The notes under the pieces are model-generated. The model searched no databases and had not been told where the DNA came from. It worked only from the letters and a program-made list of their open reading frames with translations. From contig JAHKZT010000005.1 in NCBI GenBank assembly GCA_020626475.1, positions 1 through 18,608 on the forward strand: a DNA stretch of 18,608 nt, in the 5' to 3' direction. The position numbers and the translations under genes are program-made. The DNA comes from a bacterium. Its GTDB lineage: Bacteria > Patescibacteriota > Saccharimonadia > Saccharimonadales > Saccharimonadaceae. Each line of letters opens with the position of its first letter. The first letter of the stretch is position 1. Below are positions 4,751-9,053 of this stretch, piece by piece.

Positions 4751-4958
4751 AACGTTTCTTTTCCTTGACTTCGTTGCGGCCGAGGTTCTTTTTGGTCTCG
4801 GTGAAGACAACGTGCTTGCGAAGTACTGGATCGTACTTGCGAAGACTAAGTTTGTCAGGAGTATTCATGGTATTCTTCTTCGTATAGTAAAGACGAATGC
4901 CAGATTCCTCAGAAACTAAACCAACAAGCTTGCGCTTGGTATTACTTTTCTTTGCCAT
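4749..4958 (-). CDS. rpmG: 50S ribosomal protein L33, cysteine-free form
   Basis: This 69-aa protein starts [18 protein letters not shown] and continues with the L33 hallmark [20 protein letters not shown], then [11 protein letters not shown]. The two CxxC zinc pairs of the C+ form are replaced (SEES in the first, DPVL in the second), so this is a C-minus L33 that would not bind zinc. It exceeds the usual 50-56 aa by a basic tail ([12 protein letters not shown]). It sits in the large-subunit E-site region. No Shine-Dalgarno sequence is present. The promoter -10 ends only 10 nt before the ATG, so the mRNA should be nearly leaderless. It is a single-gene unit with its own terminator. Confidence 0.96.
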
Positions 4959-4968
4959 ATTGCGTATT

Positions 4969-4997
4969 ATTTTAGCACAAATCTTTTACTGGCGCAA
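4969..4997 (-). promoter_or_regulatory. rpmG promoter giving a near-leaderless mRNA
   Basis: Minus strand: TTGCGC (4997-4992), 17-nt spacer, TAAAAT (4974-4969) with TGC before it. Transcription should begin about 3-5 nt before the ATG at 4958, leaving no room for a ribosome-binding site. Confidence 0.8.
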
Positions 4998-5010
4998 GAT
5001 ATAAGCCCAT

Positions 5011-5040
5011 TTGACAAAAATACATCGTGCGCGATATATT
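5011..5040 (+). promoter_or_regulatory. Redox operon promoter with palindromic operator
   Basis: A perfect TTGACA (5011-5016) is followed at 18 nt by TATATT (5035-5040). A 20-nt imperfect palindrome, ATACATCG-TGCG-CGATATAT (5020-5039, 7 of 8 arm positions complementary), fills the spacer and overlaps the -10. This is where a MarR-type repressor would block RNA polymerase, and the operon encodes one (5174-5608). The region is back to back with the rpmG promoter, so rpmG could be affected as well. Confidence 0.68.
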
Positions 5041-5060
5041 CTAAACAGAAAGGAGTTTTT

Positions 5061-5174
5061 ATGAGCGAAATATACAATTTCTCAGTAAAGGCCCGCAAAT
5101 GCAATATCGTAAAGCACTTTGAACCAATGACTAAGCCAGAAAAAATTGAACAAGATATCAAAGGTCTAATCTAA
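5061..5174 (+). CDS. 37-aa small protein, first gene of the redox operon
   Basis: ATG at 5061 follows AAAGGAG with 6 nt spacing, a strong site, and the frame runs 37 codons to TAA at 5172-5174. That stop shares its last base with the ATG of the ohrR-like gene (TAATG), so the two are translationally coupled. The product is basic, has one Cys (residue 14, in RKCNIVKHF), no signal peptide and no recognised domain. The strong ribosome-binding site, the coupling and the promoter directly upstream argue for a real small protein or a translated leader controlling the regulator. I do not recognise a family. Confidence 0.72.
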   Translation: MSEIYNFSVKARKCNIVKHFEPMTKPEKIEQDIKGLI

Positions 5175-5608
5175 TGGACGTTTTAAGTTTAGATCGCCAA
5201 ATCTGCTTCCCGCTCTGGCTCTGCGCTAAGGAAATTACGCGCGCTTACGGGCCGCTCCTCGAAGAGTTCGATTTAACCTATACGCAATACATCGCCATGC
5301 TCTATTTCTGGCAACACAGCGAGTCGACCGCCTCGGAACTTGGGCAAGCAATGCATCTCGGGCCAAATACAACCACACCAGTCATCGAAAGATTACTAGA
5401 AAAAGGCTATATAGAGCGCAAAAAATCAAAAGACGACGCGCGTCGCCAAATTATTTCAGTTACGCCAAAAGGCGAAGAATTAAAAGTATCCGCCGTAAAG
5501 ATTCCGCAAGAGATGGGCGCCTGCATTGCGTTGGAGCCCGAAGAAGCAATGACTTTACATCGTTTATTGTATAAAATAGTATCAAGACTAGATAAGGAGA
5601 AAGCATGA
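5174..5608 (+). CDS. ohrR: MarR-family regulator, OhrR type (one-Cys peroxide sensor)
   Basis: The 144-aa winged-helix protein matches OhrR-like MarR regulators. It has LDRQICFPLW with Cys11, the position of the peroxidatic Cys15 in Bacillus OhrR. Tyr25 (TRAYGPLL) and Tyr36 (LTYTQY) keep the same +14 and +25 spacing as the two Tyr that hydrogen-bond that Cys. The recognition helix region NTTTPVIERLLEKGYIERKK and wing SKDDARRQIISVTPKGE follow. A second Cys (17) lies close by and a third near the C-terminus (GACIALEP). OhrR represses until organic peroxide oxidises its Cys. Here it lies inside the operon it presumably controls: it overlaps the 37-aa gene by 1 nt and trxA by 4 nt (ATGA). The partner gene ohr is not in the window. 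Confidence 0.88.
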   Translation: MDVLSLDRQICFPLWLCAKEITRAYGPLLEEFDLTYTQYIAMLYFWQHSESTASELGQAMHLGPNTTTPVIERLLEKGYIERKKSKDDARRQIISVTPKGEELKVSAVKIPQEMGACIALEPEEAMTLHRLLYKIVSRLDKEKA

Positions 5609-5919
5609 GCATCATTGAAGGCACGAGCGAGAATTTCGAAAAAGAAGTATTGAAGTCCGATAAACCAGTTTTAGTAGATTTTAACGCAAGCTGGTGCCCT
5701 CCCTGCCAAGCTCTGCATCCTACCCTAGAGGCAATGGCCGACGAATCTAATGATTATAAAATCGTTACCGTCGACGTCGACGACGAAGCTGCACTTGCTG
5801 AAGAATATGACGTCAGTAGCATTCCGTGCCTTATTGCTTTTATCGATGGCAAAGAGGCTGATCGCCGCGTTGGCTTACAGCCGCGCAAAAGACTAGAAAA
5901 AATGTTAGGAGTTAAGTAA
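5605..5919 (+). CDS. trxA: Thioredoxin with WCPPC active site
   Basis: This 104-aa single-domain thioredoxin would be a cytosolic dithiol reductant recharged by the TrxB encoded next. PVLVDFNASWCPPC places the redox pair at Cys31 and Cys34. The usual WCGPC has become WCPPC, which should alter the redox potential and pKa. The cis-Pro loop is SSIPCLIAF, with Cys directly after the proline where Thr is common. The rest of the fold is normal (VTVDVDDEAALAEEYDV, then GLQPRKRLEKML). AAGGAG precedes the start. It overlaps ohrR by ATGA and trxB by TAATG, so the three are tightly co-translated. Confidence 0.95.
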   Translation: MSIIEGTSENFEKEVLKSDKPVLVDFNASWCPPCQALHPTLEAMADESNDYKIVTVDVDDEAALAEEYDVSSIPCLIAFIDGKEADRRVGLQPRKRLEKMLGVK

Positions 5920-6818
5920 TGTACGATGTAATTATTATCGGCGGCGGTCCGGCAGGTCTCACGGCCGCAATTTATGCTCGTAGAGCGAATCTTAAAACCT
6001 TAGTCCTCGAGGCAACTGCTTGCGGTGGCCAAATTATTATCACGCCAGATATCGAGAACTACCCTGCAGCAATGCATATCTCTGGCCTAGATTTTGCTAG
6101 TCGCCTCGAATCGCAGGCAAACGAGCTTGGTGCAGAGATTAAGTTTGAAGAAGTTACAGGCTTAAATGACCGCGGCGTCGAAAAAGAAGTCTATACCGAT
6201 AGCGGCTCCTATACCGGAAAGGCAGTCATTATCGCAACTGGCACCAAGCCACGTAAACTTGGTCTCATTGGCGAGGATGAATTAATTGGCCATGGCGTAT
6301 CCTACTGTGCAACTTGCGACGGTTCATTCTATCGTGGCCGTGTCGTTGCGGTAAATGGCGGCGGAAATACCGCACTCGATGATGCGCTCTTTCTTTCGAA
6401 TATTGCCGAAAAAGTATATCTCATTCACCGTCGCGACGAATTCCGTGGCGACGCCGAAACGGTCGAAAAGCTCAAAGCAAAAGAAAATGTCGAGCTGGTC
6501 CTCAACTCAAATGTAACAAAACTCGATTACGACAAAAAGCTAAACAGCATCGAGGTAACCGACGTGAATGGCGCGACAAGAAAATTAGATGTAGCAGCGC
6601 TCTTTATCGCAATTGGCCGTATGCCGGCCACTGAGGCCTTCGCTGATAAGATTACAATGCTCGATGGTGGTTATATTGATGGCGAGTATTGTCATACAAA
6701 CATGCCTGGTATATTTGTTGCAGGTGACTGCCGTAATAAAGAAGTTCGCCAGCTCGTTACTGCAACTGCAGACGGCGCCGTAGCTGTTCATGAAGTACTA
6801 AAACTACTAAATAAATAG
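5919..6818 (+). CDS. trxB: Thioredoxin reductase (NADPH)
   Basis: This 299-aa FAD/NADPH flavoprotein moves electrons from NADPH to thioredoxin. Residues 8-13 (GGGPAG) bind FAD, and the redox disulfide is Cys130-Cys133 in SYCATCDGSF. The NADPH domain has NGGGNTALDDALFLSN (about 146-161) and HRRDEFR (170-176), the Arg residues that contact the NADP 2'-phosphate. The C-terminal FAD motif is FVAGDCRNKEVRQLVTATAD. It is slightly shorter than the usual 310-330 aa. It overlaps trxA by 1 nt (TAATG), so the enzyme and its substrate are made together. Confidence 0.96.
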   Translation: MYDVIIIGGGPAGLTAAIYARRANLKTLVLEATACGGQIIITPDIENYPAAMHISGLDFASRLESQANELGAEIKFEEVTGLNDRGVEKEVYTDSGSYTGKAVIIATGTKPRKLGLIGEDELIGHGVSYCATCDGSFYRGRVVAVNGGGNTALDDALFLSNIAEKVYLIHRRDEFRGDAETVEKLKAKENVELVLNSNVTKLDYDKKLNSIEVTDVNGATRKLDVAALFIAIGRMPATEAFADKITMLDGGYIDGEYCHTNMPGIFVAGDCRNKEVRQLVTATADGAVAVHEVLKLLNK

Positions 6819-6825
6819 GAGGAAT

Positions 6826-7503
6826 ATGCGCAACAAGGAAACAATTGGACTAATTATCGCCGTCGTAGCTCTAATTGGCGGCTTAGCGCTTGGCACATTC
6901 TTAACTCAGAGATCTAATGTCTTACCAGAGCTACCAAAGCCGGAGCTTAGCGAAGGACAGCGCGGGCAACTAGGCATTGATAAAAATATCAACGAATCAA
7001 CAATTGATAAATATCTCTATCGCGATGATAGCGTCTATTACGACGTACGCATGCTCGAAGACCCAGCCAACTACGAAGAAATTGGCGGCGACCGTTATCT
7101 ATCCGGCCTTGTCGACGGCTTCGAGGTCGTATCATATCCATATCTCGTTAACGTAGAGGGACTACCGGAGGCGGTTGGCAGTACTTATACCGGTAAGACC
7201 TTGTTCACGCAAAAAGATGGCAAATATACGGCAAACTACGAAGAATCGCAAAAAATTCTCGAAGATCTATTTCCGAAGGATAAAAATATCTTCCTAATGT
7301 GTGGTGGCGGCGGCTATTCTGGCATGACTAAGAATATGCTTACTTCGCTCGGTTGGAACGGCGACAAGATTTATGTCGTTGGCGGTTACTGGTACTATGA
7401 GGGCGAGCATGACGTAAAAATTAAACAAGACGACGGAAGCTATGCCTTTTGGAAGATCGCCTATCATGACATCGACTTCGATAAATTGACTGAGAAAAAA
7501 TGA
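6826..7503 (+). CDS. Membrane-anchored rhodanese-like protein
   Basis: The 225-aa protein has an N-terminal hydrophobic anchor (about residues 7-26) and an exported domain that looks rhodanese-like. The sequence SVYYDVRMLEDPANYEEI is followed after an insertion by DKNIFLMCGGGGYSGMTKNM. Cys159 lies at the start of the loop where the persulfide-bearing Cys of rhodaneses sits, and LGWNGDKIYVVGGYWYYEG gives the usual GF/GW...V..LxGG ending. Rhodaneses carry sulfane sulfur or act in thiol redox relays. AGGAGG seven nucleotides after trxB gives independent strong initiation. Its position behind trxA-trxB and before a thioredoxin-like protein suggests extracytoplasmic sulfur or disulfide handling. 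The fold call is by eye. Confidence 0.78.
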   Translation: MRNKETIGLIIAVVALIGGLALGTFLTQRSNVLPELPKPELSEGQRGQLGIDKNINESTIDKYLYRDDSVYYDVRMLEDPANYEEIGGDRYLSGLVDGFEVVSYPYLVNVEGLPEAVGSTYTGKTLFTQKDGKYTANYEESQKILEDLFPKDKNIFLMCGGGGYSGMTKNMLTSLGWNGDKIYVVGGYWYYEGEHDVKIKQDDGSYAFWKIAYHDIDFDKLTEKK

Positions 7504-7970
7504 AAAAGTCAGTAAAAATTACAGTTGCGAGCATTGTCGGCGCAGCCATAATCTGCGCCGGTGGCTTTGCGGCCTGGAAAATCCTTGATAACCAAAGTTT
7601 TCGGCTCGATGATGAATACTATGCCAAGAGCGAAGCGATCGATATCAATAAAGACGAATACGAGAAGCTAATCTCAGAGAATAAGTCTTTCGTCATTATG
7701 ATTGATAAGCCTGGCTGTATCACAACGCCAAAGATGCGCGAGAATATGGCAAACTTCCCTGATGATACGCAGTTCAAATACTATCGTATGATGTGGGATG
7801 AAGTGAAAGAATCTAGCCTTCATGATTACGTGAAGTTTACTCCCTCTGTAGCAATCATTAAGAAGGGGCAAGTAAAAGCCTGGCTACAAGCCGATCGCGA
7901 CGAAGATACGGAATACTTCGAGAGTGGCGATGCGCTAAGAAGCTGGATAAGAAAATATATCGTCTTTTAA
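7500..7970 (+). CDS. Membrane-anchored thioredoxin-like protein with a single active-site Cys
   Basis: The 156-aa protein has an N-terminal hydrophobic anchor (about residues 7-28) and then a small thioredoxin-like domain. SFVIMIDKPGCITTPKM places Cys73 after the second beta strand, where the CxxC of thioredoxins lies, but the second Cys is Thr (CITT). VKFTPSVAIIKKGQ gives the cis-Pro loop and following strand. The only other Cys (19) is in the membrane segment. It overlaps the rhodanese-like gene by ATGA, so the two are probably made in equal amounts. A monothiol domain could form mixed disulfides or persulfides with the rhodanese partner (inference). It is the last gene of the operon. Confidence 0.72.
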   Translation: MKKSVKITVASIVGAAIICAGGFAAWKILDNQSFRLDDEYYAKSEAIDINKDEYEKLISENKSFVIMIDKPGCITTPKMRENMANFPDDTQFKYYRMMWDEVKESSLHDYVKFTPSVAIIKKGQVKAWLQADRDEDTEYFESGDALRSWIRKYIVF

Positions 7971-7971
7971 C

Positions 7972-8005
7972 AAAAAATATCCCCCTTCTCTAGGGGATAT
8001 TTTTT
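7972..8005. terminator. Bidirectional terminator between two convergent operons
   Basis: A perfect 13-bp inverted repeat, AAAAAATATCCCC (7972-7984) with GGGGATATTTTTT (7993-8005), has an 8-nt loop. It can stop both the plus-strand redox operon and the long minus-strand operon. Confidence 0.93.
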
Positions 8006-8010
8006 ATATG

Positions 8011-8442
8011 TTATTTTTGTTCTGTAACTCGAGATTCGAGTTTTTCGTTAACTTCGATAAGGTAGGTATGTTCTTCTTCGACTGAGCCATCCGCAAAGCT
8101 GCCGTAGCGAAGTGTGATTTTCGTTCTACCAGCTTTATTGCCCTTAATAATGAACTGCTCTACTGGTCTACCGCCATCGTCGGCTGGATTTTCATAGTCG
8201 ATAGACGAAGTCTTATCCGTTACATCGGCAATAGTCGTATCTTCGACTGTATAACTCCATTCGTAGATGCCGCCACTAGTCTTATTAAGAATAATCACGC
8301 TATATTCACTACCATCATCGAACTGCGGAATGCTGCTGCGACTAACAGCCACAAATACGCCGAAGACAACAAGCGCTAAAATCGCTAATACTACAACTAC
8401 GGTAATTGCTTTACGGGTTTTTGGCGCTTTAATGTCTACCAT
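8011..8442 (-). CDS. Membrane-anchored chagasin-like (I42) domain protein
   Basis: This 143-aa protein has a TM anchor at about residues 12-33 and an exported beta-rich domain. The domain follows the chagasin/I42 cysteine-protease inhibitor layout: NKTSGGIYEW (53-61) sits where the NPTTGY loop is expected, ADDGGRPVEQFIIKG (87-101) where the GxGG loop and next strand are, then AGRTKITLRYGSF, and THTYLIEV-like closing strand (HTYLIEVNE). The third inhibitory loop, normally RPW, is not conserved (YGSF). It may therefore be an inhibitor, a structural relative or a general Ig-like fold. It starts inside the stop of the preceding gene (TAATG) and is the last gene of the minus operon, ending at a bidirectional terminator. 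Confidence 0.6.
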   Translation of the reverse strand: MVDIKAPKTRKAITVVVVLAILALVVFGVFVAVSRSSIPQFDDGSEYSVIILNKTSGGIYEWSYTVEDTTIADVTDKTSSIDYENPADDGGRPVEQFIIKGNKAGRTKITLRYGSFADGSVEEEHTYLIEVNEKLESRVTEQK

Positions 8443-9053
8443 TATTCTTCCTTTTCAATCTTTACTTCAATGTCTTTTGGCTGGATATTGCTGATTTTAA
8501 CAAATACTGCGCGGCCATCGATGGTGTCGAGATTGCTGTCGTCGTATTTTGCGACCGCATCAATCTGAAGATTATAATCGGCATCACGCGTGACGGTATT
8601 TACCTTAAAATCGCTCAATCTTGCAGCCTCGTGCGTAACTAATACGACCGAACCAGAATTGAAGAAGTCCTTGTCGACGCTATAGCTAATGTTATTATCG
8701 CCGGATGCACCGCGAAGAGCATTTAGGACATCCTCGAGCATAGAATTACTATTAATAACTACATAGTCATCCTTAGATTCCTTATTAATAAGGTTCACGA
8801 GATAGTTCTCTACCTCATTTTTACCGGACGGTACTTTATAGGCGAAGCCGTCCGTCTTAAAATCAACACTATTAATCGTAACAATCTCTTCAGAACGCTT
8901 CTTTTCTTCGGCCTTGGCGTCTAAATTGGTCTGAAAACGCATGCCAAATAAGATTAGAGCCATAATAAAGGCTGCGCCAAGTAATACGCTCATTACTGCA
9001 GTAACGGCGATCTTGATATTATTTGATTTTACGTCTTGTTCTTCTCCTGACAT
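8442..9053 (-). CDS. Membrane-anchored orphan protein
   Basis: This 203-aa protein is not recognised. A short charged N-terminus is followed by one long hydrophobic segment at about residues 14-38 and then an exported domain of about 150 residues, with no Cys. The domain alternates strands and helices (VTINSVDFKTDGFAYKVP, SGSVVLVTHEAARL, AVFVKISNIQP). GGGAGG lies 5 nt before the ATG. It is coupled to the chagasin-like gene by TAATG, which suggests the two exported proteins work together. It lies 26 nt behind frr. Confidence 0.82.
   Translation of the reverse strand: MSGEEQDVKSNNIKIAVTAVMSVLLGAAFIMALILFGMRFQTNLDAKAEEKKRSEEIVTINSVDFKTDGFAYKVPSGKNEVENYLVNLINKESKDDYVVINSNSMLEDVLNALRGASGDNNISYSVDKDFFNSGSVVLVTHEAARLSDFKVNTVTRDADYNLQIDAVAKYDDSNLDTIDGRAVFVKISNIQPKDIEVKIEKEE

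Follow-up and report, generated by a model that had tools for sequence, protein, structure and literature searches.

In Pseudomonas aeruginosa, the OhrR homologue OspR controls the glutathione peroxidase gene gpx in answer to organic hydroperoxide and uses two cysteines at the gpx promoter; the accessible part of that account names AATT-N-AATT as the core of OhrR operators (PMC4999210). Alone among the systems tried, thioredoxin re-reduced the two-cysteine OhrR of Chromobacterium violaceum (Cys21 and Cys126) in vitro, and the DNA binding of this OhrR was restored in vitro by thioredoxin together with thioredoxin reductase and NADPH; whether thioredoxin also reduces OhrR in vivo is called an open question there (PMC3469484). 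Here we describe a locus in an 18,608-nucleotide stretch of DNA (the window; contig JAHKZT010000005.1 of assembly GCA_020626475.1, family Saccharimonadaceae), in which ohrR, trxA and trxB lie behind a remnant of gpx and in front of the genes of two membrane-anchored proteins, one of rhodanese fold (RHO, the protein of 6826–7503) and one of thioredoxin fold (TLP, the protein of 7500–7970). With slightly better than even confidence, we read it as an OhrR/thioredoxin sensor-and-reset operon that has lost its peroxidase and is followed by a one-cysteine envelope cassette. A literature search at title and abstract level, with subscription journals mostly outside it, found no account of the RHO–TLP pair or of a gpx-ohrR-trxA-trxB operon.

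Comparisons within the genus covered 45 genomes, including that of the window (G000; 81.6% complete, 265 contigs), and profile searches used a control set of 14. As far as its accessible description goes, the OspR–gpx system is alike in joining an OhrR-family regulator to a glutathione peroxidase, but is described without trxA-trxB, with an intact gpx and with the AATT-N-AATT core, whereas the window has a gpx stub (PMC4999210). With the OhrR–OhrA system of C. violaceum the locus would share a two-cysteine OhrR; the target given in the available text is ohrA (PMC3469484), whereas in the window trxA and trxB lie in the ohrR operon, and the Ohr/OsmC family (PF02566) was matched in 0/45 genomes of the genus, the incomplete G000 included (control 12/14). 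The bacterial system of glutathione peroxidase and thioredoxin (PF00255 with trxAB) is represented among relatives by the order gpx-trxA-trxB, of which the window keeps only the gpx ends.

A glutathione peroxidase stub upstream of ohrR

The first open reading frame (ORF) of the locus, at 5061–5174 on the forward strand, has 37 codons and was counted in a preliminary description as a protein in its own right. The frame is real, but what it encodes is a glutathione peroxidase reduced to its N and C termini, which are fused in frame. The comparison rests on a genome of the same genus, G110 (its 16-kb region was read as L108), where gpx-ohrR-trxA-trxB stands beside rpmG, the same ribosomal gene as at the window locus. 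Specifically, the G110 gpx starts with MSTIYDLKIKTRK and ends with GNVVKRFAPTTKPEDIEKDLKELM, and the window frame reads MSEIYNFSVKARK-C-NIVKHFEPMTKPEKIEQDIKGLI. When stub and G110 gpx were compared by BLASTP, the C-terminal part gave an E value of 7e-10 (a single comparison), and the N-terminal part alone was not significant. In a scoring against four intact glutathione peroxidases that allowed one free gap between the two ends, the stub reached 111, as against ≤ 51 in 5000 shuffles and ≤ 24 for the 65 other ATG-initiated ORFs of 30–60 amino acids in the window, which rules out an unrelated small protein. Each end taken separately reached a score attained by 0/20 000 shuffles. The stub is without the catalytic domain and the active-site cysteine of the enzyme.

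The longest word common to both ends of the G110 gpx is TCGCAAA. Because CGCAAA is present at both of these ends and at the stub junction, the middle of gpx was probably lost by deletion between short direct repeats. The TAATG overlap of gpx and ohrR in G110 is the same as that of stub and ohrR in the window. The profile PF00255 had no match in the incomplete G000, and a search for a peroxidase of this genome, restricted to the glutathione peroxidase and OsmC families, likewise gave none. That the stub is an artefact of assembly or strain mixture, and that the organism has an intact gpx, is very unlikely in our estimate. It is known from a single fragmented assembly of modest completeness, but the repeat at the join, of 6–7 nt, is probably too short for the usual misjoin by an assembler; start, reading frame and stop of the stub are all retained, as is its overlap with ohrR; elsewhere in G000 no glutathione peroxidase is matched; and the ends of the stub were found in none of the best 120 of 8000 scored glutathione peroxidase relatives (an intact relative being the query). 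Among the relatives listed, the best end matches were 11/13 for the N end and 14/23 for the C end.

Glutathione peroxidase was matched in 13 of the 45 genomes, at 14 loci. In L138, L140 and L144 the gene is followed directly by trxA, as it is, in the form of a 63-amino-acid open frame, in L147; in L146 ohrR-trxA-trxB comes next. At the other nine loci trxAB was not seen within the fetched flank. OhrR itself was found in just two of the 45 genomes, that of the window and G110. From these layouts and counts, gpx-trxAB is a recurrent arrangement of the genus and ohrR an occasional member of it.

Sensor, reductants and candidate operator

The ohrR gene (5174–5608, forward strand) encodes a MarR-family protein that family and structure-sequence searches place among organic peroxide sensors. 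Its best family is the NCBIfam OhrR model (133.4 bits, under the cut-off of 200), and it scores 45.9 bits with Pfam MarR (PF01047), over the cut-off of 24.6. The closest solved relatives are 1z91 (E 1.2e-25), a regulator of organic hydroperoxide resistance, and the chains 2pfb and 2pex, which are named OhrR. In the alignment the sensing cysteine of 2pfb is matched by Cys11, with Tyr25 and Tyr36 likewise conserved, so that the cysteine and two tyrosines of the preliminary description are indeed in register; a third tyrosine, of 1z91, is replaced by Trp15. We take these residues to have the peroxide-sensing roles of their counterparts. Cys11 and Cys117 are both common to the window and G110 proteins, and Cys117 aligns one residue off the second cysteine of 2pfb and 2pex. 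The two genes that follow on the same strand were also identified correctly: trxA (5605–5919) encodes a thioredoxin with WCPPC (TIGR01068, 100.2 bits; cut-off 96.8), and trxB (5919–6818) a thioredoxin reductase, which scores slightly under its cut-off (TIGR01292, 334.5 bits; cut-off 343.45).

All six ORFs were confirmed by coordinates, and their spacing is as first described: stub and ohrR overlap by 1 nt (TAATG), ohrR and trxA by 4 nt, trxA and trxB by 1 nt; the RHO gene follows trxB after a gap of 7 nt and overlaps the TLP gene by 4 nt (ATGA). Upstream, at 5011–5040 (forward strand), lies a sigma-70-like promoter, TTGACA-18-TATATT, with 11/12 matches to the consensus and identified by that match only; it is the best of 12 promoter-like pairs within 4940–8060 (shuffle mean 5.7). 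A terminator-like hairpin of 13 pairs, four of them G-C, with a T tail closes the unit at 7972–8005 (forward strand) and is the longest of nine such hairpins (shuffle mean 3.3). The layout thus resembles one transcription unit, and the six genes are probably co-transcribed.

Within the promoter, at 5021–5038 of the forward strand, is the sequence TACATCGTGCGCGATATA, which is palindromic at 14/18 positions. In G110 the counterpart is TGTATCGCATGCGATATA (16/18 palindromic), 35 nt before gpx. At a further locus, L029, TACATCGCGCACGATATA lies 42 nt before trxA, within a near-copy of the window promoter; L029 is by position the same record as G130, an 81% complete genome that gave no match for ohrR or gpx. 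The upstream regions of L027, L028, L030, L031, L032, L138, L140 and L144 have 6 or 7 mismatches to the palindrome at best, the coordinates of L140 and L144 being approximate. The pattern was built from the window and G110, and their two matches are not independent. The best 22-mer shared by these two upstream regions was matched by 2/500 shuffles, and sharing combined with palindromy by 0/300; when longer upstream regions were compared, the conserved rpmG promoter was picked out instead. By its position and its co-occurrence with ohrR, we regard the palindrome as a candidate OhrR site.

These parts would fit an ancestral, peroxide-inducible operon gpx-ohrR-trxA-trxB. Organic peroxide would oxidize OhrR and so derepress the operon; electrons would pass from NADPH through TrxB and TrxA to the glutathione peroxidase and on to peroxide; and thioredoxin would also re-reduce OhrR, shutting the operon again. 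Given that thioredoxin re-reduces a two-cysteine OhrR in vitro (PMC3469484) and that OspR controls gpx in P. aeruginosa (PMC4999210), such an operon would be coherent as a sensor, a peroxidase and the reductants of both. With the 37-codon frame recognized as what is left of gpx, the ancestral circuit would not be an Ohr circuit. In the window genome the middle of gpx would then have been deleted, the 37-codon stub retaining the start and the 1-nt overlap, and what remains would be a sensor transcribed together with its likely reset system, with RHO and TLP as a separate envelope cassette further down the unit.

Ordered by gene content, the loci form a series: operator-gpx-ohrR-trxA-trxB in G110; operator-stub-ohrR-trxA-trxB-RHO-TLP in the window; operator-trxA-trxB, with RHO-TLP further on, in L029; and trxA-trxB without the operator in L027, L028, L030, L031 and L032. 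By comparison, the series may show a redox operon in decay, from complete, through loss of the peroxidase, to a state in which sensor and peroxidase are not found and the operator is left.

The RHO–TLP cassette

The preliminary description had assigned the last two genes to an anchored rhodanese-like protein with Cys159 and an anchored thioredoxin-like protein with Cys73, and structure models bear this out: RHO (6826–7503, forward strand) has a rhodanese fold (pLDDT 90.0), with Cys159 in CGGGGYSG, and TLP (7500–7970, forward strand) a thioredoxin fold (pLDDT 89.2), with Cys73 in CITT. Both are predicted to be anchored with their domains outside. RHO had no Pfam match at E values up to 1, and neither protein passed any curated family cut-off; the rhodanese profile PF00581 had no match in G000, window RHO included, and matched 10 of 30 RHO family members weakly (best E 0.0031). 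Measured against the sulfurtransferases GlpE, PspE and YibN of Escherichia coli, RHO appears in its model to share the fold and the cysteine that heads a six-residue loop, Cys159 being aligned with the GlpE cysteine in a loop of rhodanese size. It differs in its loop, CGGGGY, in an extra segment of 35 residues before the active-site strand and in its obligate partner, TLP. Rhodanese loops carry an Arg, Thr or Ser pattern, which CGGGGY is without. TLP, in turn, shares with thioredoxins and monothiol thioredoxin-like proteins the fold, a single active-site cysteine and a cis-Pro-like residue (Pro115); unlike thioredoxins it has CxxT for CxxC and a membrane anchor, and its gene is adjacent to or in one ORF with that of RHO.

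The linkage of the two is close. RHO relatives were followed in 80 named loci, the best 80 of 254 confirmed in genome_contigs, and in a wider set of 110 loci in which some genomes are counted twice. In 73 of the named loci TLP stands next to RHO on the same strand; six (L060, L065, L084, L088, L094 and L106) have both in a single ORF, and in one (L102) TLP was not found. In the wider set the counts were 99, seven and four, and P0095 is a further natural fusion. The motif CGGGGY[AS]G is kept in 108/110 loci, and 103/105 parsed RHO domains have one cysteine. At the TLP site 89/106 have CxxT, CxxS or CxxA. Two of the fused ORFs are unusual: L106, with a Solobacterium title, has a full CSSC at the TLP site, and in L065 (1441–3009, a Bacilli record) RHO and a TLP-like domain share a single 522-amino-acid ORF with a Big_2 Ig-like domain.

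RHO and TLP most likely act on each other, and reactive sulfur, as a persulfide or an oxidized thiol on Cys159 of RHO, would be passed to Cys73 of TLP. A less probable but still plausible account is that the cassette acts on exported disulfides, by reduction or rearrangement, and that RHO serves as a scaffold or carries an oxidized thiol, without transfer of sulfane sulfur. A further CPxC domain in 21/99 adjacent TLPs and the CSSC of the fused L106 speak for such thiol-disulfide chemistry, but the alignment of Cys159 with the GlpE cysteine, in its rhodanese-sized loop, and the missing second cysteine of most TLPs point the other way. The Saccharibacteria TLPs gave no significant match to the thioredoxin profile (0.14), and a profile that included Bacillota TLPs matched thioredoxins chiefly through their CPxC domain.

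By title, 51 of the 80 named loci come from Saccharibacteria and 29 from Bacillota or Tenericutes (23 Bacilli, two Tenericutes, and one each of Clostridia, Coprosoma, Solobacterium and Bacillota); the window RHO is 61–72% identical to its Bacillota relatives over the best segment. Within the genus RHO occurs in 29/45 genomes and is absent from G110, the other genome with OhrR; a family sample had RHO, and TLP with it, in the same 5/101, and a phylum sample had RHO in 5/379, all from two genera of the window's family. A distant candidate from a different family within the phylum (G183, E 1.4e-4) was discarded, its position falling in a 458-amino-acid ORF of another kind. RHO as a phage or plasmid gene was also rejected: none of 22 pattern stretches in viral_contigs was a relative, and plasmids gave no match.

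The preliminary description had linked these genes in one circuit, in which a cytosolic reductant pair, derepressed by peroxide, would supply a persulfide or disulfide relay that the anchored proteins form outside the cytoplasm. OhrR, TrxA and TrxB, both anchored folds, the unit-like layout and an operator-like palindrome all stand, and in L032 trxB and RHO are 7 nt apart as well, though without ohrR. The joined circuit is not supported, and we consider it more improbable than any other reading discussed here. RHO-TLP lies directly after trxB in only six of the 80 named loci (L027–L032), so that the proposed adjacency is not general, and in five of these (L027–L031) the gap is 364–375 nt (about 364 in L031); ohrR was found in 0/80 named loci, and the one other OhrR genome has no RHO. 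Searches for membrane carriers, which covered DsbD_TM and VKOR and no others, matched DsbD_TM (PF02683) in 0/45 genomes of the genus (control 10/14) and VKOR (PF07884) in 0/45 (control 3/14); with these two results, nothing supports a connection between the thioredoxin of the cytosol and the envelope pair.

The closest named loci, titled Candidatus Saccharibacteria, keep the gene order around trxAB-RHO-TLP. In L033, L034 and L044 trxAB lies elsewhere within the locus. RHO was called as an ORF in 77 named loci, six of which have < 1.5 kb of upstream sequence, so that absence of trxAB there says little. The remaining neighbours differ by lineage, and OhrR was seen joined to the cassette in the window genome only. 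Judged by these neighbourhoods, RHO–TLP is a separate cassette in two phyla, independent of the OhrR-thioredoxin operon.

Several neighbouring genes were recorded alongside. Between trxB and RHO, L029 has an opposite-strand ORF at 5238–5522, present also in L028 and L031 (94–95 amino acids); the stretch with this ORF is wholly missing from the window and L032. Beyond TLP, the window encodes on the reverse strand a chagasin-like I42 peptidase inhibitor domain (8011–8442; PF09394, 28.6 bits, cut-off 27.2) and an anchored 203-amino-acid protein (8442–9053), both kept at the same place in L027–L032. A second Saccharibacteria group, made up of L053–L055, L063, L064 and loci like them, has a gene of ∼230–255 amino acids (cluster C1, 20 loci) before RHO-TLP and often, after it, three genes for exported proteins that resemble surface proteins (C4, C5 and C3).

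A quick tree of RHO, built without bootstrap from 77 of the 80 named loci and the window, did not yield clean clades: Saccharimonadota required three changes and Bacillota four, the starred branches force one and two, and 24/78 rows fell in no group. Transfer of the cassette between the phyla is likely on this evidence, though not proven, and the tree gives no direction. L087, with a Saccharibacteria title, is placed among Bacillota and may be mis-binned. Since just 26 of the 80 titles refer to an animal or a gut site, we make no claim that the cassette is restricted to the gut. One further reading strikes us as doubtful: that RHO–TLP is a new sulfane-sulfur relay outside the cytoplasm, which Saccharibacteria and Bacillota have exchanged and which a peroxide sensor without its peroxidase has captured here.

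Weight of the evidence and significance

Several observations weigh against the sensor-and-reset reading. The core of the palindrome is ATCG-N4-CGAT, whereas PMC4999210 gives AATT-N-AATT as that of OhrR operators; a shared 18-mer alone was reached by 84/500 shuffles and a 16-mer by 16/500; and in G000 the palindrome with ≤ 3 mismatches had 10 matches, as against nine in the reversed control. Foldseek found no match for RHO at E 0.001 or better (best 5.7e-3). The genome is incomplete and fragmented. RHO occurs with trxAB in few loci, so that control of RHO by OhrR may be an accident of the strain. A wider OhrR regulon in G000 was rejected on the match counts just given; the site ranked second falls between groEL and an ORF convergent with it.

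The non-canonical palindrome also speaks for the proposal that OhrR is idle or acts elsewhere and that trxAB-RHO-TLP is expressed without peroxide control, as does the presence of trxAB without ohrR and without the palindrome in the close relatives L027, L028, L030, L031 and L032. We consider this proposal unlikely: the palindrome overlaps the promoter and is common to the other ohrR operon, and both OhrR cysteines are kept.

What is worth keeping is a peroxidase deletion in an OhrR-thioredoxin operon together with an independent envelope cassette of two phyla, seen with ohrR only in the window genome. A 37-amino-acid ORF that had no explanation becomes a readable deletion, and comparison arranges a redox operon of small genomes in a probable series of decay. 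Because PMC3469484 leaves open whether thioredoxin reduces OhrR in vivo, an OhrR with two conserved cysteines in one operon with its likely reset system offers a direct test bed for that question. RHO–TLP is a strongly conserved envelope pair, neither member of which is recognized in the window by any curated family. If the relay reading is true, peroxide stress in this organism would call up envelope sulfur chemistry, not peroxide removal.

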